Source of the DNA: a virus
IMG/VR virus record: IMGVR_UViG_3300032401_000002
Location: 1 to 64,000 of that record
DNA length: 64,000 nt
Direction: 5' to 3' (one strand)
Part shown: piece by piece, positions 13,991 through 56,543 of the stretch
Numbering within the stretch: position 1 is the stretch's first letter
Layout of the letters: the number at the start of each line of letters is the position of its first letter
Position numbers and translations under genes: made by a program
The notes under the pieces: generated by a model
Databases searched by the model: none
The model's input: the letters and a program-made list of their open reading frames with translations, nothing else
Told to the model about the DNA's origin: nothing

Positions 13991-14201
13991 AGAAGATCAC
14001 CCCCGTCTCGATGTTGCGCCACTGAGTCATCACCTTATCGCAAGTGAAGTGCCCACACACAGCCGTCTTGCCAGTCTTCTCATGACGACTGGCCCACTCT
14101 TCGCGAGCGATCCGATTCTTCTCAACTTGCTCGGGGTGATGCACCGGGCACGGATAAGTTCGCGAGCCATTACCATCGAACTCACAGGTGCAGCTAAGCA
14201 A
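13974..14201 (-). CDS. Small Cys/His protein, TTG start
   Basis: 75 residues starting at TTG 14201, which overlaps the end of the CCA-enzyme gene. CTCEFDG, CPVHH and CGHFTCD suggest one or two zinc sites. No ATG or GTG would give a comparable frame, so the start is inferred from the Cys pattern and overlap. Confidence 0.55.
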   Translation of the reverse strand: MLSCTCEFDGNGSRTYPCPVHHPEQVEKNRIAREEWASRHEKTGKTAVCGHFTCDKVMTQWRNIETGVIFYGHFH

Positions 14202-17200
14202 TGTGCTCACCGATGGCTTCCGCGATGTGAGGGAACAACCCAGCGTTCGCCAACGTCTTGTAGACGATGTTGGACTCTGAGTAGTCGCCCTTGCCCTCGC
14301 GCATGTCACGGAATCTCTTCATGTGCAACAGATCCCAATAGATCTTGAGGGCCGGTGCGTTGTCGAAGCGGAGAAGCAGGCGCACCTTCTCCTCGCAATC
14401 CTTAGCGTAGCGAACGACAGCCGGGTACGTCTTATACACGTCGATGGTGCGCTGCCTCTCAGGCAGCACGATCCACTCGTCGTTGTCAAGATCGTAACCA
14501 CTGCGCAAGCCAGGCTTATAGAGATCATCAGGTTGAAATCTGTTTGTATCAACCACGAAGACCTGCAAGGGGTGTGTAGTGCCAGGGACAATGATCCCTT
14601 CGGCCTTCTCGATCATGAGGGCCACGAGATCTGATCTAACCCACTCGGGAAAGTTGTCCGTGTCGATCCAGAGACTGACATCAAAGTCACTGTCTGCGCT
14701 CCACTGATACGTCGTAAGACTACCCGTCAACACGAGCTTGAGGTACTTCTTGGGATCGGGCCACCCCGCTTCGGTCAAGATCTTGTAGACCTTGTTCTTC
14801 ACCCAAGCAACGTGCGTTGACTTGACAGTCGGAGAGGGCGAGTCTGCGTTCGTGAAGACAGCCGGATCTAGCTCCTCCTGGATGGGATCGAGGATGTTGG
14901 CATGCTTCTGCGGGATCGACTCGGGAGGAGTGCTCTGGGCGATCTGGAGCAACTGATCCTTGGTGTTCAGGGTCGGATCTTCGAGCACAAGCTCCACCAT
15001 GTGATTCAGAAGCGCACCCATCTGCGGGCCGGGCTTGAACCCCGCCGCGATCAGGTCACCACCGTTGATAGCCAGCATCTTGGTGTTGGTGGGTTCGCCA
15101 GCTTCACGCACGCCTTGGACAAGCTGCTGCATGCGAGGAACGTTACCATCCCATGCGGCACCCTTGCCACCCGAATCAGCCCAGCGCAGGTTCAGAAGAT
15201 CATCCGCGTGCTCGTCACCGACACGATTGATGAACTTGCGTGCGCCATTGGGTGCCTGGAAGGGCGGGAACATGTGCCATCTGACAAGGTGCTCGATGCG
15301 CTGAATGCGATCCACGGGAAACTTGAGTTCGGTCAACAGACGCTGCGTCATCTCGGCACCCAACTTCTCGTGATCTTGCCCCTCACCGTGCTCGTTCTCG
15401 TAGTAGTGGCCCCACCCCTCATCATCAAACCACTGACTACCGGGCTTCCCGATGTCGTGCAGAAGCGCAGCCCAGCGTACGTCCACGTCATCGGTCACCT
15501 GAGCCGTAAGGCGCAAGACCTCCTTGATGTGATCGTTGAGGAGCAGGCTGTGGTGCTTGTTCTTCTGATCGAAGCCAACCGTGTTGGCCACATCAGGCAG
15601 AACGTGCTCAAGGATGCCAGTGGTCTCCATGAGATCAACAGCCTTGGCGGGATCTGCACCACTCATGAGCTTGTCTAGCTCCATCATGACACGCTCACGA
15701 GGAAGCTCACTCAGGCTAGGAGCATGAGCGGCCATGTCGTGGTAGGTTTGTGGCGAAGGGTCAAGTCCATGGCGACTAACCGACGATAGCCCTCTAAGGA
15801 TGCGGAGAGGGTCTTCAGGGAAGGATCGGTCGGAGACAGTGTTGAGCAGTCCAGCTTTGAGATCCTCTGATCCACGGTAAGGGTCAACAAGGTCGCCGGT
15901 GGAGAGATTGACAGCCATTGCGTTGCCAGTAAAGTCCCGTCGTGCCAGATCCTGACCAACGCTAATGTAGGGGTCGGTGTAGACCTCAAAGTCCTTGTGT
16001 CCAGGCCCAGTGGATCGCTCAGTCCTCGGCATAGCGATCTCAACCTCGTTCCCCTCGGGATCGCGGTAGCGGAATACCCCGAACTGCTTACCCGTGTAGT
16101 CCACCCGACCGGGAAGAGCCTCCAGAGCTTCTTGAACGTCATCTTCGTCAACTCCTTGTACCATCAGGTCAACGTCCTTGGGTACCTTCCCCAGAACGAT
16201 GTCGCGTACGACACCACCCACCGCATAGACATTGCCCATGGGTTCGAGTGCCTGGAATGCCGCCCAAGCTGCCGGGTCGGTTGCTGCGATGTTGCGCACC
16301 TTGTGTCCGATGTTCGCCGATGCCAGCTTGTACTTCTCGTCGCCTACCATCAGAGTGATCGACTTGATGACTAACTCGGGATGCATTGCGTACCACAACT
16401 CGGCCATGTGTCGGACTGTGTAGGGCATGTCTGTGTTGGTGCGGATCTGAACATTGCCCTTGGGGTCATACAGCCCTTCCACGATGCCGCCCGGCGTGAA
16501 GCGCCCCTGGATGTCAGAGTGACGCTCGCCAGGATGGCCAACGTAGATGCGATCAGTCTCGATGTCAAAGATGTACGGGATGGGGCCAGCCAGCATCGGA
16601 GGCTGTGGCTTCGCTGCTGTCATCTGGAAGATTAGTCTCCCCTGCCTCTGCACGGTCTTGTCCATGATGTTCTCGTTGAAGTTGGCAGGCAGAACGTCGT
16701 CCATATCGACAACGGGTTGCGGATCAGTGGGGGGCTTTCTGTCAGGGTTGATGTGGAAACGCAGGGTGTGCTTGCGCCAGTCGTCGTAGTTGATGCATGC
16801 AGCCCCGCAGTCAGAGCACGTACGCGGAGCCGTCATCGGCATCTCGTCATCGGGGTCATTCATGTAGAAGGGCTTAGGACTCTGGGGATAGCCAGGGTTG
16901 TCGAACTGATCGGTGCCCGACCACTCATCCAGCTTGTAGTTGAGCAGACCGGGGTTGATCTCGCCGATGCCCTCGACAGAAGCCTGCTTGAGTGCCGTGC
17001 TCCCGTAGGGCATGCCCTCTTGATCCAACAGTCCGCCCCAGTCCCACCCTTGATCCTTCGTGTAGCGCTTGAGGCGCTTCTCGACCAAGTGGAGGGAGAT
17101 GTTGCTGTGCTTGATCGACCAGAACGCAGTCCATCGGAAGTGTAGCTCCAACTCGCCGAAGGCATGAGGGCGACTACCATCGTTCCACCCCATGGCCTTG

Positions 17201-17391
17201 AACTGATCTACGTGATGGTCATTGGACACACTCACATGCGTGCCACTCATGGCCCAGTTGTACTCGTCAGCAGGACGATCCAGAGGCGCGACAGAGTAAT
17301 CCTGACGGATCTGTGCCGCTTCGGCAGCGGCTTGTGGCTCCTCGCCCGGATAGGCGTCAGAACCGAGTAGGTCGGCAGACTTCTGCATCAC
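14194..17391 (-). CDS. Multidomain CCA-adding tRNA nucleotidyltransferase with second nucleotidyltransferase domain
   Basis: A 1065-residue protein. Residues 192-213 form a C2H2-like finger (CSDC ... HTLRFH). From 385 there is a class II CCA-adding/poly(A) polymerase head: GGVVRD 392-397, catalytic DVDL 406-409, RRDFT 484-488 and EDPLRILRG 526-534. An HD domain follows (LLHDIGKP, His645-Asp646). Residues about 888-906 (LTGS...SDFDVS) form a second pol-beta-type nucleotidyltransferase core. The N-terminal third is unrecognised. Typical CCA enzymes are 380-450 residues, so this is a fusion. The nearby tRNAs and tmRNA lack encoded CCA, which explains why the phage carries it. Start GTG 17391 or ATG 17388. 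Confidence 0.85.
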   Translation of the reverse strand: MMQKSADLLGSDAYPGEEPQAAAEAAQIRQDYSVAPLDRPADEYNWAMSGTHVSVSNDHHVDQFKAMGWNDGSRPHAFGELELHFRWTAFWSIKHSNISLHLVEKRLKRYTKDQGWDWGGLLDQEGMPYGSTALKQASVEGIGEINPGLLNYKLDEWSGTDQFDNPGYPQSPKPFYMNDPDDEMPMTAPRTCSDCGAACINYDDWRKHTLRFHINPDRKPPTDPQPVVDMDDVLPANFNENIMDKTVQRQGRLIFQMTAAKPQPPMLAGPIPYIFDIETDRIYVGHPGERHSDIQGRFTPGGIVEGLYDPKGNVQIRTNTDMPYTVRHMAELWYAMHPELVIKSITLMVGDEKYKLASANIGHKVRNIAATDPAAWAAFQALEPMGNVYAVGGVVRDIVLGKVPKDVDLMVQGVDEDDVQEALEALPGRVDYTGKQFGVFRYRDPEGNEVEIAMPRTERSTGPGHKDFEVYTDPYISVGQDLARRDFTGNAMAVNLSTGDLVDPYRGSEDLKAGLLNTVSDRSFPEDPLRILRGLSSVSRHGLDPSPQTYHDMAAHAPSLSELPRERVMMELDKLMSGADPAKAVDLMETTGILEHVLPDVANTVGFDQKNKHHSLLLNDHIKEVLRLTAQVTDDVDVRWAALLHDIGKPGSQWFDDEGWGHYYENEHGEGQDHEKLGAEMTQRLLTELKFPVDRIQRIEHLVRWHMFPPFQAPNGARKFINRVGDEHADDLLNLRWADSGGKGAAWDGNVPRMQQLVQGVREAGEPTNTKMLAINGGDLIAAGFKPGPQMGALLNHMVELVLEDPTLNTKDQLLQIAQSTPPESIPQKHANILDPIQEELDPAVFTNADSPSPTVKSTHVAWVKNKVYKILTEAGWPDPKKYLKLVLTGSLTTYQWSADSDFDVSLWIDTDNFPEWVRSDLVALMIEKAEGIIVPGTTHPLQVFVVDTNRFQPDDLYKPGLRSGYDLDNDEWIVLPERQRTIDVYKTYPAVVRYAKDCEEKVRLLLRFDNAPALKIYWDLLHMKRFRDMREGKGDYSESNIVYKTLANAGLFPHIAEAIGEHIA

Positions 17392-19041: not shown

Positions 19042-19430
19042 CGGTTGCGCTTCCTCGCCTTCTTCGCATTCTTCTTCTTGGCCTTGACCTTGACCCACTG
19101 GCGCTCGCGTGCTTCCTGCTCTTTAAGTGCCTGAACTGCGGCACTATACGGGATGACCTTCATCGGAATCCCAGCCACCTGGCACGCCGCATACTCCTTG
19201 TCAGTCCTGACAACGGTCTTCTTGTCCATCCTCAGGTAGTAGTTCTGATCCTTGGGGTCGCTATCGAGCGCCATGCGCTTGCGAGCTTCAGCTTCAAGCT
19301 CGGTCATAGCGGCAGCGGCCTGCTCGTCCATGAAGGCCATACCAGAAGCGATGTCGTTGAATGCCTGAGGCGCGTCGGGGTTAACGTACTCCTCGATGTC
19401 CTCCATGTTCATGATGCCGAAATCAGTCAT
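19038..19430 (-). CDS. Hypothetical protein with basic tail
   Basis: 130 residues. The acidic helical N-terminus changes to a Lys/Arg-rich C-terminus (KVKAKKKNAKKARKRNR), likely nucleic-acid binding. No family recognised. Confidence 0.65.
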   Translation of the reverse strand: MTDFGIMNMEDIEEYVNPDAPQAFNDIASGMAFMDEQAAAAMTELEAEARKRMALDSDPKDQNYYLRMDKKTVVRTDKEYAACQVAGIPMKVIPYSAAVQALKEQEARERQWVKVKAKKKNAKKARKRNR

Positions 19431-19770
19431 CGCTCAGGGGCCTCCCCCATGGATCGCAGAACCAGACGGGTGTGCGGCATACGCCACACTCGAACAAGTT
19501 GACGGGTCTCCCTGCTCGTTTCATGAGAGGGTCATCATCGATGTATTGCTCGATGTAGGCCAATGGATGAGTACATCCGGTCACATCCATCTCCCCTCGT
19601 TCGGCCATGCCCGTGAACTTGCTGCGCAGAGCGAACGCTTCGGGATTGTGGATGTACTTGACCGTCGAATCTCCAGGCTTCAGGGACGCGATGAACTCAG
19701 CGTTATCCTTCGCTCGTTGGCCTTCAACACGCGCAGCCTCGATCCGCTGCTCCACTGAGTCTTTATCCAT
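19423..19770 (-). CDS. Hypothetical protein with CxxC
   Basis: 115 residues. A helical N-terminus leads to ECGVCRTPVWFCDPWG at the C-terminus, a probable zinc or structural Cys cluster. 8-nt overlaps with both neighbours. Confidence 0.63.
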   Translation of the reverse strand: MDKDSVEQRIEAARVEGQRAKDNAEFIASLKPGDSTVKYIHNPEAFALRSKFTGMAERGEMDVTGCTHPLAYIEQYIDDDPLMKRAGRPVNLFECGVCRTPVWFCDPWGRPLSDD

Positions 19771-49471: not shown

Positions 49472-49483
49472 AAAGTTTATCGT

Positions 49484-49555
49484 CGCGGATTGGAGCAGTG
49501 GTAGCTCGCTAGGCTCATAACCTAGAGGTCGTTGGTTCGAATCCATCATCCGCTA
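49484..49555 (+). tRNA. tRNA-Met(CAT), initiator-like
   Basis: Loop CTCATAA. Position 1-72 is an unpaired C/T and the D stem begins GAGC (A11:U24), two hallmarks of bacterial initiator tRNA. The anticodon stem has GG rather than GGG. No encoded CCA. Confidence 0.9.
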
Positions 49556-49920
49556 TGAGGCCACCGCCCTAATACCCACGGGTAGTCGGGTTGTGCTGGC
49601 CTCTCTAGCTCAGGTGTATAACAGGACGGCTTGCCGTCTGAGGCCACCTGGGAACGGGTACGGGGTGGAGGCTGGTCGCCGTCTGCTTGTGGTGTAGCGT
49701 CGTCTTCGGACGGGGTGTAATCCGCAGGTTTGATATAGAGCAGTCCCACTCCGTCCCACCTATCCCTTTCTAGCTCACACAAGACTGTCGCGAAAGCGGC
49801 ACCACACGCGCATCTATGCGCGGATTGAGCAGGGTGGCACACAACCTTGACCAAAAGAGTGTGTCTGCGCATGAGATCGCAGGAACCATCTCACGGGCAT
49901 GGCCCGTTACAGCCATACTA
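49556..49920 (+). other. 365-nt spacer with tRNA-like and hairpin elements
   Basis: 49599-49671 can form an acceptor-like GCCTCT/GGAGGC pairing around a TAGCTCAG D-arm-like segment, but has no T-loop. Strong hairpins CGTC-TTCG-GACG and CGCGCAT-CT-ATGCGCG follow. Probably a decayed tRNA and processing stems. Confidence 0.35.
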
Positions 49921-49994
49921 CAGCGTGTAGCTCAGTCTGGTAGAGTGTCCGTCTGGGGGACGGAGAGTCGAGGGTTCGAGTCCCTCCACGCTGA
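49921..49994 (+). tRNA. tRNA-Pro(GGG)
   Basis: Full cloverleaf, loop CTGGGGG, acceptor CAGCGTG/CACGCTG. First of three adjacent Pro isoacceptors. No CCA. Confidence 0.95.
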
Positions 49995-50002
49995 TAGCAT
50001 GA

Positions 50003-50078
50003 CTGGATGTAGCTCAGTTTGGTTCAGAGTACCCGATTCGGATTCGGGGAGTCGGAGGTTCGAATCCTCCCATCCAGA
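50003..50078 (+). tRNA. tRNA-Pro(CGG)
   Basis: Loop TTCGGAT, acceptor CTGGATG/CATCCAG, T arm GGAGG-TTCGAAT-CCTCC. No CCA. Confidence 0.95.
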
Positions 50079-50082
50079 TAGA

Positions 50083-50157
50083 CAGGTCGTAGCTCAGTCT
50101 GGTAAGAGTGCCCGCCTTGGACGCGGGGAGTCGGTGGTTCGAATCCACCCGGCCTGA
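50083..50157 (+). tRNA. tRNA-Pro(TGG)
   Basis: Loop CTTGGAC, acceptor CAGGTCG/CGGCCTG. No CCA. Confidence 0.95.
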
Positions 50158-50391
50158 TACCTCCTATCCTGAGGGGGAACCCCGCGTTGACCGTGGGATC
50201 GTAAGCGCGTCTCGGCGCTCGTGGAAACTACCCGGACATAGGCGGGCAAGTCTGCGAGAACAACCTGGGGCGAAGCGCGTACCCTGCGCGAGCGGTTAAC
50301 AGAGCACAAGGTTTACATGGTTCGGCTCGTCGTGATGGTCTGTCGCGCTCCTTGTGCCGCGCGATGGATGGCAGGCCATCCTGAGCAACTT

Positions 50392-50755
50392 GGGCATGCC
50401 CGGTTTCGACAGTCGTGTATGGGCAATGAGATGCAGCGGGTCGCGGCCTTATCGCGCCAAGCCTTGGACAGGGCAACCACATGCAGACGACAACATCGTC
50501 TCCACGGACTACATCGACAACGGCATCGCCGCTCTCGAAGACTTCCTCGCGGAAGCGTCCCTCGTCACGGTCTAGCGAGTACCAATAGACCGCTGTGTCG
50601 CCCAGCTTAGGCGACTGACTGCTCGGAAAGTGACGAGTTGACCCGGAGAGGGAAAGTCCTCTGCCCTGGTGGAGGGCACACAGCCCCCAAAGAAGCTGCT
50701 AGAAGTCTTGTTGTAACCGCTCGGTTGGACGAGGGTTCGACTCCCTCCATGTCCA
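50392..50755 (+). ncRNA. ssrA: tmRNA (SsrA) with a 30-residue proteolysis tag
   Basis: 364 nt. The 5' end GGGCATG pairs with CATGTCC at the 3' end (G-U at pair 3). The 5' part has the conserved GGTTTCGAC of tmRNA D-regions and the 3' part a T arm GAGGG-TTCGACT-CCCTC. The tag reading frame probably resumes at GCA 50483 and ends at TAG 50573-50575. It encodes 30 residues beginning ADDN and ending SLVTV instead of the usual LAA. It rescues stalled ribosomes together with host SmpB. No encoded CCA. Confidence 0.88.
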
Positions 50756-50901
50756 CTGCAAGAATCAAGAAATCCCCTAGGGGCGTCGTTGTCTGCTACC
50801 AGTTCCGCAGGAGCAGCCAGGTGCGGAACACCTGCGAGGCGTATGAGGGAGAGTCACGAGAGTGACACGGAGATGTCTTTCCCTAGGGGCATCTCTCACA
50901 C

Positions 50902-50970
50902 GCGGAGTAGGCTAAGGCAGCCAAGTGGTCTCCAACACCACAGGACAGGGTTCGATTCCTTGACGCCGCG
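50902..50970 (+). tRNA. tRNA-Trp(CCA)
   Basis: Anticodon arm GTGGT-CTCCAAC-ACCAC, T arm CAGGG-TTCGATT-CCTTG, discriminator G. Acceptor has one A/G mismatch and the D arm is small. Confidence 0.85.
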
Positions 50971-51055
50971 CTTCATCACTGAAAGGTTCGAGGGTTGACT
51001 GAAGGTACGGTTCGTCTGCTCACGGCAGGCAGCTAGGCTTCAGCAGTGATGGCAT

Positions 51056-51129
51056 GCCCCGTTAGTCTAACGGTTCAGGATACCACCCTCTCACGGTGGG
51101 GATTGCGGGTTCGAATCCCGCACGGGGTA
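51056..51129 (+). tRNA. tRNA-Glu(CTC)
   Basis: Loop CTCTCAC, acceptor GCCCCGT/ACGGGGT, T arm GCGGG-TTCGAAT-CCCGC. No CCA. Confidence 0.95.
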
Positions 51130-51170
51130 CTGCCTTCGGGCACTGGGCCACGCAGCATCAGTGGCATCAC

Positions 51171-51242
51171 TGGAGGGTAGCTCAATGGTAGAGTGTCCCG
51201 CTGTTAACGGGGTGGTTCTGGGTTCGAGTCCCAGCCTTCCAG
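51171..51242 (+). tRNA. tRNA-Asn(GTT)
   Basis: Loop CTGTTAA, acceptor TGGAGGG/CCTTCCA, discriminator G as usual for Asn. Confidence 0.95.
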
Positions 51243-51254
51243 CTTGCAACACAT

Positions 51255-51328
51255 GGCCTGTTCGTCTAGCGGTCTAGGATACCGGGCTTTCAACTCGGAC
51301 GACAAGGGTTCGAATCCCTTACGGGCTA
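51255..51328 (+). tRNA. tRNA-Glu(TTC)
   Basis: Loop CTTTCAA, acceptor GGCCTGT/ACGGGCT. No CCA. Confidence 0.93.
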
Positions 51329-51427
51329 CTGACGGTGCCACGAGCCGTCGTAAGCAACTCGTGGTCGTGAACAGAGAGGGACGACGGGAAACCGTCCTCT
51401 GACACGGATGAGAAAGCTCCCACACCT

Positions 51428-51500
51428 TAGAGGGTGGTCTAATCGGCAGGACGCCAGGCTCTGACCCTGGAGATTGAAGGTTCGATCCCTTCCCCTCTAG
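51428..51500 (+). tRNA. tRNA-Gln(CTG)
   Basis: Loop CTCTGAC, perfect acceptor TAGAGGG/CCCTCTA, discriminator G. Confidence 0.95.
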
Positions 51501-51505
51501 CTCTC

Positions 51506-51577
51506 AACAGGGTAGACTAACGGTAGGTTCCCTGGCCTTGAACCAGGTCGGTCTAGGTTCGAATCCTAGCCCTGTTA
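51506..51577 (+). tRNA. tRNA-Gln(TTG)
   Basis: Loop CCTTGAA, perfect acceptor AACAGGG/CCCTGTT. Confidence 0.95.
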
Positions 51578-51662
51578 CTGCAACAAGATTGCCACGCCCC
51601 TATGCCGGGGCCAATCTAGGCGGGTATTGCGCCCGTGTGTCCAGGTGAAAGCCCTGGCTTAT

Positions 51663-51737
51663 GCCCCTCTAGCCCAACTGGCCAGAGGCAACGGCTTTAA
51701 AGACCGTTCAGTGAAGGTTCGAATCCTTCGGGGGGCA
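51663..51737 (+). tRNA. tRNA-Leu(TAA), short variable loop
   Basis: Acceptor GCCCCTC/GGGGGGC. By standard numbering the loop is TTTAAAG with anticodon TAA. The variable region is only five bases (TCAGT), whereas Leu tRNAs are normally class II. The top anticodon-stem pair is C/A mismatched. It is a close structural sibling of the Leu(CAA) gene at 53101. Confidence 0.8.
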
Positions 51738-52121
51738 CTGAAGGACACGCACGTCTGCGCGAAGGGGTTGCTCCCGGAGAGCTTAGGGCGTCCGTGGTGG
51801 TGTGGCCGAGTAGGACTGGATTCCTCTCCACGAGGGGTACAGTTGCGAAGGCACAACCGGCGAAAGTGACGGGCAACCGGCACGAGTAGTAGCCGCGACA
51901 AGGGTGTTGCGTTCGGCCAGAGCCAATCGGTGAGGTCGGTCTCAGTCAGCACTCGTCTGGGAGTAGTTACCTGGGCAGACGGTGGCGCTTGACAGCGCAG
52001 GGAAGGTACGACCGAAACTGTAGCCATTGACATGGACAAGCAGTGGATAGGTCGTCGGAGGGTTGCTGAATCCCTTCCACCACTCCTTCTATCTCTTTCT
52101 CCCCGCACAGTAACTAGCACT
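51738..52121 (+). other. 384-nt spacer without recognised gene
   Basis: It contains a class-II-tRNA-like fragment around 51796-51880 (TGTGGCCGAGTAGG, then CCTC-TCCAC-GAGG), but no T arm. GTTG/CAAC and other hairpins are visible. I assign no function. Confidence 0.3.
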
Positions 52122-52301
52122 ATGGCGGGAATCATGATCAGGTGCTCAGGCACGAAGGACGGGGTACATTGTGCCCGGTACACTCGTTTCATTGGAGCGC
52201 CGAATGTTGACTGGACGTGCGAAGGGTGCCTTGCTGGTCGAGCACCATTCGAGCACAAGTCGAAGGTTGTCCAGCAGCAGATGAAGCACAAGAAGAAGTA
52301 G
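52122..52301 (+). CDS. Small four-Cys protein gene inside the tRNA array
   Basis: 59 residues from ATG 52122 (or ATG 52134). IRCSGTKDGVHCARY and WTCEGCLAG give a zinc-ribbon pattern, and the C-terminus is basic (HKSKVVQQQMKHKKK). Apparently the only protein-like ORF with domain character in the array. Weak ribosome binding site. Confidence 0.55.
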   Translation: MAGIMIRCSGTKDGVHCARYTRFIGAPNVDWTCEGCLAGRAPFEHKSKVVQQQMKHKKK

Positions 52302-52304
52302 CTT

Positions 52305-52378
52305 ACCTCGCTAGCTCAAACGGATAGAGCAAGGGTCTTTTAAACCCAAGGTTCTGGGATCGTACCCCAGGCGAGGTA
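52305..52378 (+). tRNA. tRNA-Lys(TTT)
   Basis: Loop CTTTTAA, acceptor ACCTCGC/GCGAGGT, atypical T loop ATCGTAC. Confidence 0.93.
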
Positions 52379-52541
52379 CTCTTGAACGACTATTCGGCTC
52401 CTCTGGACGCTGCGCGGCTTCACCACCGCTCGACTCCATGTGGTTCATGGAGGGTCAAGGTTGTTGACGGTAGGCACGCTCGCGACGTAGCCGAAAGACA
52501 GCTTACCGAAGGGCAAGACCGCACTGGTCGTTCAAGTTATT

Positions 52542-52615
52542 GGATCGCTAGCTCAGTTAGGCAGAGCAGGGGACTCTTAATCCCAAGGTCGTCGGTTCGA
52601 TCCCGACGCGATCCA
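52542..52615 (+). tRNA. tRNA-Lys(CTT)
   Basis: Loop CTCTTAA, acceptor GGATCGC/GCGATCC, T arm GTCGG-TTCGATC-CCGAC. Confidence 0.95.
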
Positions 52616-52636
52616 CTGGCCGCAAGGCCGACAGGG

Positions 52637-52722
52637 CCGGAAGGGCGAGGGTTCGAATCCCTCCCGGACAAGGAGCTTCGGCTCACCGTCCGGTAGCTCA
52701 GTGGGAGAGCGTCCGGCGTTAT
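52637..52722 (+). tRNA. Apparently circularly permuted tRNA (3' half before 5' half)
   Basis: The 3' half comes first: CCGGA (52637-52641), variable AGGGC, T arm GAGGG-TTCGAAT-CCCTC, acceptor CCGGACA. A UUCG-capped linker hairpin (GAGC-TTCG-GCTC) follows. Then the 5' half: acceptor CGTCCGG (52687-52693), TA, D arm GCTC-AGTGGGA-GAGC, TCCGG (52712-52716) and CGTTAT. The halves pair exactly: six acceptor pairs with a C/A mismatch at 1-72, and five anticodon-stem pairs TCCGG/CCGGA. Anticodon not assignable; a decayed rearranged tRNA is the alternative. Confidence 0.6.
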
Positions 52723-52805
52723 GCTCTGGTGGTGGAATTGGTATACACACTAGCCTTAGAAGCTAGCGCCCACAGGGATTGAGGGTTCGACTCCCTCCTA
52801 GAGCA
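52723..52805 (+). tRNA. tRNA-Leu(TAG)
   Basis: Class II with long variable arm, loop CTTAGAA, acceptor GCTCTGG/CTAGAGC. Confidence 0.95.
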
Positions 52806-52857
52806 CTAGGTAGACGTACCGAGACCCAGCGGATGGGTCAACCTAAAGTCCGCACCC

Positions 52858-52941
52858 GCGCTCGTGATGGAATGGGTAGACATGCTAGGTTGAGAGCCTA
52901 GTGGCCGCGAGGTCGTGCAGGTTCAAGTCCTGCCGTGCGCA
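52858..52941 (+). tRNA. tRNA-Leu(GAG)
   Basis: Class II, loop TTGAGAG, acceptor GCGCTCG/CGTGCGC with one T/T mismatch. Confidence 0.92.
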
Positions 52942-52942
52942 T

Positions 52943-53011
52943 AGGATGGTAGCCCAACAGAGAGGCAGCCCGACAAGGGAAGAGTTGCCGGAATCGAGTC
53001 CGGCCCATCCG
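52943..53011 (+). pseudogene. Degenerate tRNA-like element
   Basis: Acceptor GGATGG/CCATCC and a GCCGG/CCGGC T stem are present, but the anticodon arm (CCC-GACAA-GGG) is abnormal and the T loop lacks TTC. Probably a decayed tRNA. Confidence 0.5.
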
Positions 53012-53016
53012 ACCCT

Positions 53017-53090
53017 GGTACGCTAGCTCAATTGGTAGTAGCGTTCGGTTGAAGCCCGAAAGGTTCTCGGTTCAAGTCCGAGGCGTACCA
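53017..53090 (+). tRNA. tRNA-Phe(GAA)
   Basis: Loop TTGAAGC, perfect acceptor GGTACGC/GCGTACC. Confidence 0.95.
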
Positions 53091-53100
53091 CTGTAGTATT

Positions 53101-53175
53101 GCCCTCTTAGCCCAATCCGGCAGAGGCACCAGCCTCAAACCCTGGTCAGTGGAGGTTCGACTCCTCCAGAGGGCA
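53101..53175 (+). tRNA. tRNA-Leu(CAA), short variable loop
   Basis: Loop CTCAAAC, acceptor GCCCTCT/AGAGGGC, variable loop TCAGT only. Same class I-like form and 31-39 mismatch (C/C) as the Leu(TAA) gene. Confidence 0.82.
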
Positions 53176-53189
53176 TAGTACCACCACAT

Positions 53190-53264
53190 GCGGATCGTAG
53201 CTCAATCGGTCAGAGTCGTGGCTTGTGAAGCCATCGGTTGCGGGTTCGAATCCCGTCGATCCGC
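53190..53264 (+). tRNA. tRNA-His(GTG)
   Basis: Loop TTGTGAA. Eight-bp acceptor GCGGATCG/CGATCCGC includes the His-specific G-1:C73 pair. Confidence 0.95.
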
Positions 53265-53271
53265 CTTGTAC

Positions 53272-53344
53272 GTGCGAATGGCTCAGTAGGTAGAGCATCT
53301 GGTTGCCAATCAGAAGGTCGCGGGTTCGAACCCCGCTTCGCACA
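53272..53344 (+). tRNA. tRNA-Gly(GCC)
   Basis: Loop TTGCCAA, acceptor GTGCGAA/TTCGCAC. Confidence 0.95.
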
Positions 53345-53465
53345 TCGGTAGCTGGTTGGCGAGTCCTTCCCATGCAGCCTGGGCGACCTGAGTCTCGGCC
53401 GAGATGAGGGAACCTTGTGAATCGGGTCGTTGGCCAACTTGTGCAAACCATCCAGGTGCCGTCCT

Positions 53466-53539
53466 GCTCCATAAGCTCAGTCTGGCAGAGCGCTGGTCTT
53501 GTAAATCAGGGGTTGTCGGTTCGATCCCGACATGGAGCT
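53466..53539 (+). tRNA. tRNA-Thr(TGT)
   Basis: Loop CTTGTAA, acceptor GCTCCAT/ATGGAGC. Confidence 0.95.
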
Positions 53540-53542
53540 TAC

Positions 53543-53615
53543 GACCCGGTAACTCAGTGGACAGAGTCACGGTTTCCTAAACCGTTGGTCACAGGTTCGA
53601 CTCCTGTCCGGGTCA
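53543..53615 (+). tRNA. tRNA-Arg(CCT)
   Basis: Loop TTCCTAA, acceptor GACCCGG/CCGGGTC. Confidence 0.95.
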
Positions 53616-53620
53616 TGTTT

Positions 53621-53693
53621 GGCCTGTTAGCTCAGTGGACAGAGCGTGGGGCTTCTATCCCCAGCGTCGGAGGTTCGATCCCTCCACGGGCCA
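53621..53693 (+). tRNA. tRNA-Arg(TCT)
   Basis: Loop CTTCTAT, acceptor GGCCTGT/ACGGGCC. Confidence 0.95.
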
Positions 53694-53699
53694 CTTTAC

Positions 53700-53723
53700 A
53701 CAAGACGCTCGAAGCGTCCTTGT
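53700..53723 (+). other. Ten-bp spacer hairpin
   Basis: ACAAGACGCT-CGA-AGCGT(C)CTTGT between tRNA genes. It may be a processing stem or a partial terminator. Confidence 0.4.
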
Positions 53724-53834
53724 ACTAGATGATGCCCTTCGGGGCCGGGCGGGGCGATCCATTGGCCTGGGAACAGAACGAGGTCGAACACGACGGGTGA
53801 CAGTTGAACGGCGGGACGCCCGGTGCCCGCACAT

Positions 53835-53906
53835 GCGAAGGTAACTCAACGGTAGAGTCTCAGTTTTCCAAACTGGTGGTTGCGGGTTCGATTCCCGTCC
53901 TTCGCT
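53835..53906 (+). tRNA. tRNA-Gly(TCC)
   Basis: Loop TTTCCAA, acceptor GCGAAGG/CCTTCGC. Confidence 0.95.
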
Positions 53907-53951
53907 CTCGGTGGGTGAGTCCAGGTTCGCCCTGTAAGTAGCCCACCGCTA

Positions 53952-54024
53952 CGCTGTGTAGCTCAGTTGGTAGAGCAATCCCCTCATAAGGGAGAGGTCG
54001 GAGGATCGTAGCCTCCCATAGCGA
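53952..54024 (+). tRNA. tRNA-Met(CAT), elongator-like
   Basis: Loop CTCATAA, acceptor CGCTGTG/CATAGCG with a normal 1-72 pair and D stem GCTC, unlike the initiator-like gene. A lysidine-type Ile tRNA is an alternative. Confidence 0.88.
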
Positions 54025-54130
54025 CTTCGGTCAGTGCTTAGGCACAGGACAACGAACCTCCCAAGACCCGGTACGACTCCACAACATGGGTGGAGCAACG
54101 TTCTGATCAAAAGCCGGGTTGGCCGAACAC

Positions 54131-54201
54131 GCTCCTATAGCTCATGTGGAAGAGTCATCCTTCGTACGGATGTGGTCGCAGTTCGACTCTGCGTGGGAGC
54201 T
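54131..54201 (+). tRNA. tRNA-Thr(CGT)
   Basis: Loop TTCGTAC, acceptor GCTCCTA/TGGGAGC. Confidence 0.92.
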
Positions 54202-54204
54202 TGC

Positions 54205-54276
<72 letters not shown>

Positions 54277-54385
54277 TGCAACAAGACTCTCCTCGATGCG
54301 TGAGGGGCTGCTCACCAGCCCGCAAAGCGCAAACACGGGAGATAGACCGGGCGAACGGGAGTGAGCTTCGCCTGGTCGAACTTTC

Positions 54386-54458
54386 GGCCTGTTAGCTCAG
54401 CGGACAGAGCGAGTGGCTTCGAACCACTAGGTCGGGGGATCGTACCCCTCACAGGCCA
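54386..54458 (+). tRNA. tRNA-Arg(TCG)
   Basis: Loop CTTCGAA, acceptor GGCCTGT/ACAGGCC, atypical T loop ATCGTAC. Confidence 0.94.
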
Positions 54459-54468
54459 TGTAGTACCT

Positions 54469-54540
54469 GGTTTCGTACGAATCTGGTGAAACGGTTCCCC
54501 TGTCACGGGAATGAGGCGGGTTCGATTCCCGTCGAGACCG
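54469..54540 (+). tRNA. tRNA-Asp(GTC)
   Basis: Loop CTGTCAC, acceptor GGTTTCG/CGAGACC, discriminator G. Confidence 0.93.
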
Positions 54541-54691
54541 CTATGGGCTGTAGAGTCCTGGGGTGTTGGAGAATCCCCGAAGCTGCGAGGTAGACCAACC
54601 TCCTCGCGGCCTCTAGTCGCGCTCCTTGAAAGCTGGCCCGCAAGGCCGGTGGAAGTATCGGGCAAAACCGACGCGACTCATTCAGGGCCTG

Positions 54692-54763
54692 GGGCGGTTA
54701 GCTCAGTGGGAGAGCAGGTTCTTTACACGTACAAGGTCGGGGGTTCGAATCCCTCACCGCCCA
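54692..54763 (+). tRNA. tRNA-Val(TAC), weak anticodon stem
   Basis: Acceptor GGGCGGT/ACCGCCC and T arm are normal. Loop TTTACAC gives TAC, but the stem GGTTC/GTACA has two mismatches. Confidence 0.78.
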
Positions 54764-54774
54764 TACCAGGATTC

Positions 54775-54872
54775 AGCGCTAGTGTGCCTGCCTGGGGCCG
54801 AACCACCCGTATGCCGGTGGGGGAATCAGCACCCGAGGGTACTCGGAGTTCAGGTGCGAACCCTGAGCGCTA
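54775..54872 (+). pseudogene. Class II tRNA-like element, anticodon unclear
   Basis: AGCGCT/AGCGCT acceptor, variable arm CCGAG-GGTA-CTCGG, T arm TCAGG-TGCGAAC-CCTGA, and an irregular 8-nt anticodon loop (CCACC-CGTATGCC-GGTGG). A decayed or unusual Tyr/Ser-type tRNA. Confidence 0.45.
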
Positions 54873-54879
54873 TTGAACG

Positions 54880-54953
54880 TGACCCGTAGCTCAGTGGTAA
54901 GAAGCGGGAGGCTTATATCCTCTTGGTCGTGGGTTCGATTCCCACCGGGTCAA
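54880..54953 (+). tRNA. tRNA-Ile(TAT)
   Basis: Loop CTTATAT, acceptor TGACCCG/CGGGTCA. It reads AUA without needing lysidine. Ends one base before the RNase P RNA. Confidence 0.92.
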
Positions 54954-54954
54954 T

Positions 54955-55190
54955 CACGAACGGAAAGACAAGCGCGGTCGCAAGATCGAGGAAAGTCAGG
55001 CCACCTGAACCAGGGGAGACCAATGCAACCTGGGGAAACGTGACGAGGACGTGGGAGAAGGTCGCAAGGTCTTCGGCTTACCACCTAATCGGCGGGGTGC
55101 AACCTCAAGCGGACGGTCATCTCAGACCGGACAGGTAGAGGGCACAGATAGATGCTTGTCCTAGACAGAAGCCTGCTTACGAAGTTCGTG
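54955..55190 (+). ncRNA. rnpB: RNase P RNA (compact bacterial type)
   Basis: 236 nt. Conserved blocks: GAGGAAAGTC (54988-54997), GGCACAGATAGATG (55141-55154) and GACAGAA...GCTTA (55164-55179), in the order of bacterial RNase P. P1 CACGAAC (54955-54961)/GTTCGTG (55184-55190); P2 GACAAGC (54967-54973)/GCTTGTC (55154-55160); P3 CGGTC-GCAA-GATCG (54975-54988); P4 CAGGC (54997-55001)/GCCTG (55171-55175), where E. coli has CCGGG/CCCGG. This is the catalytic RNA that makes tRNA 5' ends, about 140 nt shorter than E. coli's (377 nt). It lies between tRNA-Ile and tRNA-Val. Confidence 0.88.
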
Positions 55191-55244
55191 TACACATGAG
55201 AGTGGTTTGGCGGTCGTGACCCATACCTCACGCGCTCTCACCTT

Positions 55245-55317
55245 TGGCTCGTAGCTCAGTTGGGAGAGCACTTGATTGACATTCAAGAGGTCGTCGGATC
55301 GAGGCCGACCGAGCCAA
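55245..55317 (+). tRNA. tRNA-Val(GAC)
   Basis: Loop TTGACAT, acceptor TGGCTCG/CGAGCCA, T loop ATCGAGG. Confidence 0.94.
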
Positions 55318-55388
55318 CTTGCCCACCCGTCGCGTTGTAGGGGAGTGGCATAAGCCCCCGTCTGTTGCAACGCCAGCCGGGGGAACTC

Positions 55389-55462
55389 GCGGTTGTAGCT
55401 CAGTGGAATAGAGTATCAGGTTGCGAACCTGAGGGTCGCTGGTTCGAATCCAGCCAATCGCA
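55389..55462 (+). tRNA. tRNA-Arg(GCG)
   Basis: Loop TTGCGAA, acceptor GCGGTTG/CAATCGC. G34 replaces the inosine-type ACG usual in bacteria. Confidence 0.94.
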
Positions 55463-55653
55463 CTCAGCACTACAAGTTTGGGGACGGCCCCGTCAGGCCC
55501 CTTCCCAACGCTACCTCTGGCGAGATAGGGGTCGTGTCAACTCGACCACGAAAGTGTCGGGGCGCTGCGAATCACAGAGCGTGTTATCTGTGGTCGTCTG
55601 CCGGGAGACTACCCCGTGTCAAACCAGGTGTAGCTGACGGCTCGCCTGGCCTA

Positions 55654-55727
55654 GGACTTGTAGCTCAGTGGTATAGAGCATCCGTCTGATACGCGGAGGG
55701 TCGGTGGTTCGACTCCACCCAAGTCCA
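55654..55727 (+). tRNA. tRNA-Ile(GAT)
   Basis: Loop CTGATAC, acceptor GGACTTG/CAAGTCC. Confidence 0.95.
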
Positions 55728-55852
55728 TGAGAAGTAGCTCAGATGCCATCTCGCATGTGTCTCCCGGCCAGAGCCGGATAGGGTGCATGCGGGGCAGAGC
55801 GGGCCGATGATCACGGTCGCGACGAGGGGCTGGCAATCCTCCTTCTCTACAT

Positions 55853-55923
55853 AGTGATGTGACCGAGAGGCCAGGTCGTTGGCTGCAACCCTTCGCACAG
55901 CGGTTCGAATCCGCTCATCACTT
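55853..55923 (+). tRNA. tRNA-Cys(GCA)
   Basis: Loop CTGCAAC, acceptor AGTGATG/CATCACT, discriminator T as in Cys tRNAs. Anticodon stem has two T/T mismatches. Confidence 0.85.
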
Positions 55924-55927
55924 CTTC

Positions 55928-56001
55928 GGGCGGCTAGCTCAATTTGGGAGAGCAACGCGCTTGCACCGCGTAGGTTGGGGGTTCAAGTCCCCCGCTGTCC
56001 A
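55928..56001 (+). tRNA. tRNA-Ala(TGC)
   Basis: Loop CTTGCAC, acceptor GGGCGGC/GCTGTCC (two G-T pairs). Confidence 0.93.
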
Positions 56002-56002
56002 C

Positions 56003-56188
56003 TACCGAAAGAACGGGTTCGAATCCCGGCCGCGCGACCCAAGCTAGAGGGGTATACACCAAAGGCGAAGGTCTGATCAGTAGTGTAAGGGCAGCACGTC
56101 GGTTTAACTTGGGTTGTGGGGCTGCATGGGGTGGCCATCTCGCTTGCACCGAGAACAACAGCAGGGTTCGATTCCCTGACGATCCACT
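56003..56188 (+). pseudogene. tRNA fragments
   Basis: An orphan T arm (CGGG-TTCGAAT-CCCG, 56014-56028) with no 5' half. Then a second Ala-like anticodon arm (TCTCG-CTTGCAC-CGAGA, 56138-56154) and T arm (56162-56178) followed by ACGATCCA, without a matching 5' acceptor. Remnants or interrupted genes. Confidence 0.45.
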
Positions 56189-56278
56189 AGGAAGCAGAAG
56201 CACGCAGATGACTCGTAGGTGTTCTAGAAACCAGGGCCGTAACGCAACCGTGCCCCATCAGCGCTGCATCCTACTCGT

Positions 56279-56362
56279 GGTAGGTTACTCAAGTGGTTAC
56301 GAGAGCGGGTTGCTAACCCGTCAAGTCGCAAGGCTTCCTGGGTTCGAATCCCAGACCTACCG
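56279..56362 (+). tRNA. tRNA-Ser(GCT)
   Basis: Class II, loop TTGCTAA, perfect acceptor GGTAGGT/ACCTACC, discriminator G. Confidence 0.95.
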
Positions 56363-56367
56363 TACCA

Positions 56368-56451
56368 GGAAGGTCGCATTGGCGTGCTTATGCGGTTTGA
56401 ACCCGTTGATGGGGCTAATCCCCCGTGGGAGTTCGACTCTCCCACCTTCCT
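56368..56451 (+). tRNA. tRNA-Ser(TGA)
   Basis: Class II with GGGG/CCCC variable arm, loop TTTGAAC, acceptor GGAAGGT/ACCTTCC. Confidence 0.9.
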
Positions 56452-56455
56452 CTTT

Positions 56456-56536
56456 GCTGGCGCTTGCTCAATGGTGAGGGCTACTGGCTGTAACCCAGAA
56501 GACACGTCTATGGGGGTTCGACTCCTCCCGCCAGCA
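56456..56536 (+). tRNA. tRNA-Tyr(GTA)
   Basis: Class II with AGAC/GTCT variable arm, loop CTGTAAC, perfect acceptor GCTGGCG/CGCCAGC. Last tRNA of the array. Confidence 0.93.
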
Positions 56537-56543
56537 CTCCGCG

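Follow-up and report, generated by a model that had tools for sequence, protein, structure and literature searches.

A predicted compact bacterial-type RNase P RNA encoded within the tRNA array of an uncultured phage

RNase P RNA is the textbook example of an essential, chromosomally encoded cellular ribozyme, and a candidate gene for it among the tRNA genes of a phage raises the question whether phages can encode this RNA for their own use. The candidate comes from the initial annotation of the window analyzed here (a stretch of 64,000 nt, positions 1 to 64,000 of the IMG/VR record IMGVR_UViG_3300032401_000002), in which a segment of about 236 nt was proposed to be an RNase P RNA that acts with the host protein RnpA or alone. 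We found no report of a phage-encoded RNase P RNA in the open-access literature (preprints and most subscription journals lay outside this search, and an earlier report is possible), and there is no mention of one in the available portions of three RNase P reviews (PMC11143913, PMC10941002, PMC4919922) or of a survey of huge phages (PMC7162821).

A scan of 401 nt with all 4227 Rfam families aligned RF00010, the bacterial type A RNase P RNA model, to positions 54954-55195 of the plus strand over model positions 1-367, i.e. the whole model, with 49.4 bits and E = 2e-14 (E = 1.8e-15 for this family alone in the whole 150,167-bp record). The score is half of the Rfam gathering score of 100, a cut-off curated with ordinary full-size RNAs in view that reflects no structural feature, so that a default Rfam scan misses this RNA; genuine bacterial RNase P RNAs can also score under the model cut-offs (PMC8172020). 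A descriptor of P4 and P5 matched this locus alone in the 150-kb genome and gave no match in 2.3 Mb of shuffled sequence, which argues against a chance occurrence. The folding energy of the RNA is ordinary (z = -0.79) and minimum free energy was dropped as uninformative; the evidence for identity lies in conservation and covariation, and on these grounds the segment is identified as a bacterial-type RNase P RNA (hereafter the window RNA).

The boundaries initially given prove exact, the 236-nt span being closed by P1, and the perfect 7-bp P1 and P2 and the GCAA-capped P3 are all present as described, along with P5 and P15 (Table 1). For comparison, we fetched 99 bacterial RNase P RNAs with the pattern GACAGAANCCNGCTTA and, for the four blocks CR-I, J5/15, CR-IV and CR-V, listed the positions at which 97% or more of them agree. 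The window RNA, in which the initial annotation had recognized three conserved blocks, matches the bacterial consensus at all of these positions, including those of CR-I and the P4 5' strand, with the sole exception of position 356 in P4, where the change from G to U is compensated by the change of its partner C71 to A. All 8 pairs of P4 (AAG[U]CAGGC/GCCUGCUU) are formed and the bulged U is kept; relative to E. coli, two pairs differ on both sides (C71-G356 to A-U and G74-C353 to C-G), in agreement with the covariation claimed for this helix. The L15 GGU, which in bacterial RNAs pairs with the 3' CCA of tRNA, is retained as well. The spacing between CR-I and CR-V is 177 in the window RNA versus a bacterial median of 298 by the descriptor, and direct measurement gave at least 246 in 99 of 102 bacterial RNAs. 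The sequence lost appears to be that of the specificity domain, which normally contains CR-II/CR-III and P7-P12 and of which some 90 nt are left; in these, the helices P7-P12 could not be traced, nor could they be aligned with the corresponding part in relatives.

Table 1. Predicted features of the RNase P RNA locus and associated genes (window positions)
Feature	Position	Strand	Detail or evidence
Compact, type A-like RNase P RNA gene, 236 nt	54955..55190	+	RF00010 match; syntenic homologue in G005/G001
P1 5' strand CACGAAC	54955..54961	+	pairs with GTTCGTG 55184-55190, 7 bp, perfect
P1 3' strand GTTCGTG	55184..55190	+	pairs with 54955-54961
P2 5' strand GACAAGC	54967..54973	+	pairs with GCTTGTC 55154-55160, 7 bp, perfect
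P3 hairpin CGGTC-GCAA-GATCG	54975..54988	+	5 bp, GCAA cap; sequence
CR-I and P4 5' strand	54988..55001	+	pairing bases 54993-55001, bulged U 54996
P5 5' strand CACC	55002..55005	+	pairs with GGTG 55096-55099
Reduced specificity domain, 90 nt, weakly conserved	55006..55095	+	G005 alignment, cmscan deletions
J5/15 GCAA, P15, inner P16/17-like stem, L15 GGU	55099..55142	+	
P15 CCTC/GAGG	55103-55106/55138-55141	+	
P16/17-like stem inside P15	55114-55129	+	
L15 GGU	55134-55136	+	within ACAGGTA 55131-55137
CR-IV AGATAGATG and P2 3' strand	55146..55160	+	AGA...ATG conserved
CR-V GACAGAAGCCTGCTTA	55164..55179	+	holds P4 3' strand (55171-55178)
Array of 39 tRNA genes, one strand, likely substrates	49483..56537	+	ARAGORN
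tRNA-Ile(TAT)	54880..54953	+	2 nt upstream of RNase P RNA; ARAGORN
tRNA-Val(GAC)	55245..55318	+	54 nt downstream of RNase P RNA; ARAGORN
tmRNA within tRNA array	50392..50758	+	RF00023, 56.7 bits
CCA-adding enzyme (tRNA nucleotidyltransferase) domain in 1065-aa protein	14194..17391	-	phrog_2244 E 7.6e-73; PF01743 E 1.5e-21, PF12627, PF13735

The record is that of a phage, encoding a terminase, portal, major head protein, DNA polymerase, replicative helicase, RIIA-like protein, and baseplate J and tail collar proteins. The terminase (~32% identity) and capsid (~55%) mark it as distant kin of the Ceeclamvirinae mycobacteriophages and of Gordonia and Rhodococcus phages, and because of this similarity an actinobacterial host is likely. 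A 606-aa protein from a structural-gene region (L153:7996-9816; G000 111996-113816) shows a weak, sub-cut-off and possibly chance match to the TNB domain of Cas12f1-like proteins. The window RNA is packed between tRNA-Ile and tRNA-Val as first described, with all three genes on the plus strand. The spacers of the array are in places as short as 3-10 nt, and RNase P cleavage would thus be needed to part its members; the precursors of bacterial tmRNA are described as RNase P substrates as well in the available portions of two reviews (PMC4919922, PMC11143913). Because the RNA begins so close to the end of tRNA-Ile, the 3' processing of this tRNA probably also generates the 5' end of the RNA. We found neither a sigma-70-like promoter nor a terminator near the gene; an inverted repeat (TGAGAG...CTCTCA, 55196-55239) between the RNA and tRNA-Val has no terminator-like T run and may form a hairpin that serves processing or stability. 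Inspection of the 3' ends showed that none of the 39 tRNA genes encodes the 3' CCA, and the phage CCA-adding enzyme is predicted to complement these tRNAs; that the L15 GGU has been kept is consistent with substrates to which CCA is added later. In the 1065-aa protein, the enzyme match is confined to residues ~387-817, the remainder looks like further domains, and a second nucleotidyltransferase-like motif (TGSLTTYQWSADSDFDVSLWID) is located close to the C end.

No match to RnpA (PF00825) was detected in any of 39 viral records including this one, whereas the positive control was detected in 10 genomes, and HARP, the protein-only RNase P (PIN_5, PF08745), had no match in the phage. The phage thus does not appear to encode a complete holoenzyme, its rnpA gene being missing, and of the two modes of action initially left side by side, with host RnpA or alone, the former is favored. 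We estimate at about 80% the probability that the compact phage RNA, together with host RnpA, matures phage pre-tRNAs. Under this reading, the RNA would be transcribed together with the tRNA/tmRNA array, fold up with a standard catalytic domain (P1-P5, P15, L15 GGU and CR-I/IV/V) and a specificity domain of ~90 nt, and capture host RnpA; the resulting hybrid holoenzyme would remove the 5' leaders of phage pre-tRNAs and pre-tmRNA, and the phage CCA-adding enzyme would then finish the tRNA 3' ends, so that tRNA maturation could be kept going during infection. Co-transcription, RnpA recruitment, catalysis itself and the benefit to the phage are inferred. The specificity domain speaks against this reading: it is short and divergent from relative to relative, and no elements that recognize the T-loop could be made out in it, so that substrate binding may be impaired.

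RnpA binds near P2-P4 and P15, and even a compact catalytic domain might bind it, though to a different end: a small RNA that lacks a normal specificity domain, in phages without RnpA, might act as a decoy that binds the host protein (or pre-tRNAs) without useful catalysis, slowing host tRNA maturation in favor of the phage. Nevertheless, this explanation seems unlikely given that the catalytic-core bases, the P4 bulged U and P4 pairing are kept, that a protein decoy would have no need of the L15 GGU, a substrate-binding element, and that the location on the same strand among phage tRNAs points to processing. It is quite unlikely, too, that the RNA acts free of protein, perhaps cutting in cis the neighboring tRNAs of its own transcript: type A RNAs of bacteria are active by themselves at high Mg2+, the phages have no RnpA, and the start of the RNA next to tRNA-Ile puts cis substrates close at hand, but the infected cell supplies host RnpA, bacterial P RNA needs this protein in vivo, and smaller P RNAs usually lean more on protein.

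Related phages carry the RNA as well. Two contigs collinear with the record, G005 (89.5 kb) and G001 (41 kb), mostly at ~30-87% amino-acid identity, have an RNase P RNA at the matching position of the array, where tRNA-Val(gac), tRNA-Arg(gcg), tRNA-Ile(gat) and tRNA-Cys(gca) come next. In G005, P1 (TCGAAGG/CCTTCGA) is wholly different from that of the window RNA and still perfect, the changes in P2 (GACACGC/GCGTGTC) and P15 are compensated, and the L15 region reads CCAGGTA. Among further relatives gathered by portal or capsid similarity, G077 (E 1.6e-12) and G083 (E 5.5e-12) have RF00010 matches, and P3 of the former (CGGTA-GAAA-TATCG) keeps both the stem and a GNRA loop. The G070 array of more than 30 tRNAs and a tmRNA includes an RNase P RNA with P1, P2, P3, P4, P5, P15 and the GGU, to which RF00010 gives no match; in G079, which has five tRNAs only, no RNase P RNA was found. 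The order Met-Gly(tcc)-Thr(tgt)-RNase P is common to the arrays of G022, G029, G018, G083 and G070. The near-invariant P4 pair A67-U359 is G-C in G077 and G070 and U-A in G083; in the G070 RNA (L447 ~19200-19500, minus strand) the adjacent G68-C358 is U-G. The 5' strand of P5 covaries across the phage RNAs as well (CACC, CTTC, CTCC, CACA, CTGC, CATC, CTAC).

Because a MAFFT alignment of whole RNAs misaligned P1-P3, we counted covariation in the hand-anchored catalytic domains of ten phage RNAs (P4, P5 and P15), where 95.6% of the cells are paired and 10 of 16 pairs show changes on both sides. The covariation score is 0.500 (0.131 for shuffled alignments, with none of 500 shuffles reaching 0.500; 0.05-0.09 for slid alignments). 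Hand anchoring of P15 and of the P5 3' strands and removal of the specificity domain somewhat favor structure in this count; the P4 columns were taken from the conserved blocks. In a cruder swap test among 15 candidate partners, the best P1 partner was the RNA's own in 11 cases and the best P2 partner in 8, the test being limited by the likeness of P2 sequences between RNAs. Pairing in P1, P2 and P4, on which the initial annotation had staked its proposal, is thus kept in related phages, as it is in P5. The low score compared with bacterial RNAs and the truncated specificity domain might also be expected if a host rnpB had been picked up along with tRNA genes and survived only as a relic without function, an explanation that we consider very improbable since it is contradicted by the compensatory changes in P1, P2, P3, P4, P5 and P15 across diverged relatives and the kept synteny, which together imply purifying selection on the structure.

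Although the RNA had initially been treated as a single case, it recurs among tRNA-rich uncultured phages. An unbiased search of IMG/VR with a CR-V pattern yielded 119 loci, 44 of which fit the P4/P5 descriptor. At least three tRNA genes are present within 2.5 kb at 28 of the 44 viral loci versus none of 94 bacterial loci obtained with the same pattern and test, and an A71-U356 pair occurs in 7 of the 44 viral but none of the 94 bacterial RNAs. The tRNAs share the strand of the RNase P RNA in nearly every one of the 28 arrays, and the array-borne RNAs have a shorter spacing (median 253 versus 298; Mann-Whitney p 5e-10). All of these are counts and not probabilities, related contigs being non-independent. 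Several carriers are contigs of 190-456 kb. Some of the tRNA-less matches in the viral database are probably host DNA; a generic terminase model recognized only 8 of 30 viral records and is a poor test of phage origin. In IMG/VR the exact CR-V string of the window RNA is confined to L003 and L020, and no contig from a bacterial genome contains it, so that no donor host was found. An artefact (a chance motif, host contamination or a chimeric assembly) can be practically dismissed despite the metagenomic origin of the record and the plainly bacterial contamination behind some viral-database matches, given the RF00010 E-value, the position of the RNA inside a tRNA array that is itself flanked by phage genes and the matching arrangement in independent contigs of other samples.

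Several of these loci have features of their own. The RNase P RNA of L079 is 207 nt long, and that of a 48-kb IMG/VR contig (L095, equivalent to L141:482-672, G026) is 191 nt (106.8 bits); its P5 strands are separated by only ~20 nt, so that it almost lacks a specificity domain, and it adjoins a tRNA-Glu in a tRNA array. It is possibly the smallest bacterial-type RNase P RNA. L067 and L113 encode near-identical RNase P-like RNAs, neither of which matches RF00010 at E 0.001, and that of L067 has an insertion of ~80 nt between CR-I and CR-V that could be an intron or a mobile insert. The tmRNA genes found with the arrays of relatives (L319:16700-17046, L448:2328-2709, L020:2017-2391) have unusually long predicted tags of ~27-29 residues.

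Searches in cultured phages gave a different picture. With RF00010 and the P4/P5 descriptor, we detected no RNase P RNA in six cultured relatives, namely the Rhodococcus phages E3 and Finch, the Gordonia phages Pupper and Stormageddon and the Mycobacterium phages Tonenili and LinStu, nor did RF00010 match nine other tRNA-bearing cultured phages. Tonenili and LinStu possess ~30 tRNAs and a tmRNA, which implies that the RNA is not needed for array processing as such; a 400-nt gap beside tRNA-Thr of LinStu is occupied by an HNH-like ORF. A blastn search of INPHARED with the window RNA retrieved tRNAs only, and searches with the other phage RNase P RNAs retrieved, apart from one unverified fecal scaffold, nothing but contaminating bacterial DNA or contigs of hosts (the Microcystis 'phage' MaAM05, contigs of Acinetobacter and one Salmonella record). 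With fabI, engB and mtgA alongside a full-size rnpB (251.8 bits), the MaAM05 record (MW495066.1 112820-117972; L327) resembles bacterial and not phage DNA.

Thus, related as well as unrelated uncultured phages carry RNase P RNA, and it would seem that phages can bring their own tRNA-maturation ribozyme. A broader proposal, to which we give somewhat less than even odds, is that these RNAs form a distinct and widespread phage class of RNase P RNAs, miniaturized or almost devoid of a specificity domain, inherited with tRNA arrays in several unrelated lineages and bearing phage-typical P4 changes at pairs that are near-invariant elsewhere, which recruit host RnpA and prefer phage pre-tRNAs, thereby handing tRNA maturation over to the phage. 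The RNA would put carrier phages in charge of the first maturation step of tRNAs, and this might account for the processing of large arrays while the host is shut down. Natural RNAs of 191-260 nt show how far the bacterial-type RNA can shrink and offer material for structural work, and P4, the catalytic helix, can evidently change at near-universal pairs provided that both partners change. Since the smaller phage RNAs score below the Rfam cut-off and are missed by standard annotation, the class is probably undercounted.

Comparison with known systems places the window RNA closest to bacterial type A RNase P RNA (rnpB, RF00010), with which it shares CR-I, J5/15, CR-IV, CR-V, P1-P5, P15, the L15 GGU and the P4 bulged U, at 236 nt compared with ~350-400 nt and, unlike the bacterial genes, within a tRNA array carried by a phage. 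The type P RNA of Pyrobaculum RNase P, described in the available portion of a review as consisting of the catalytic domain only (PMC4919922), has likewise kept the catalytic domain and reduced or lost the specificity domain; it is archaeal, cellular and chromosomal, whereas the phage RNAs have a bacterial-type core, and the 191-nt RNA of L095 is nearly as reduced while the window RNA has gone only partway. The diverged RNase P RNAs of CPR bacteria, which lack P12-P14/P18 (PMC8172020), similarly miss helices and score below model cut-offs but, unlike the phage RNA, are single essential copies in cellular genomes. Phage tmRNA genes and the ROOL and GOLLD RNAs found near phage tRNA islands are, like the window RNA, large non-coding RNAs in or near phage tRNA arrays, although ROOL and GOLLD are not RNase P and form RNA cages of unknown function (PMC12286853). 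Theta ribozymes, which adjoin phage tRNAs (PMC10879173), are also phage-encoded ribozymes proposed to function in tRNA maturation, but these are self-cleaving and proposed to act on 3' trailers, whereas the window RNA is predicted to be of the trans-acting type that removes 5' leaders.
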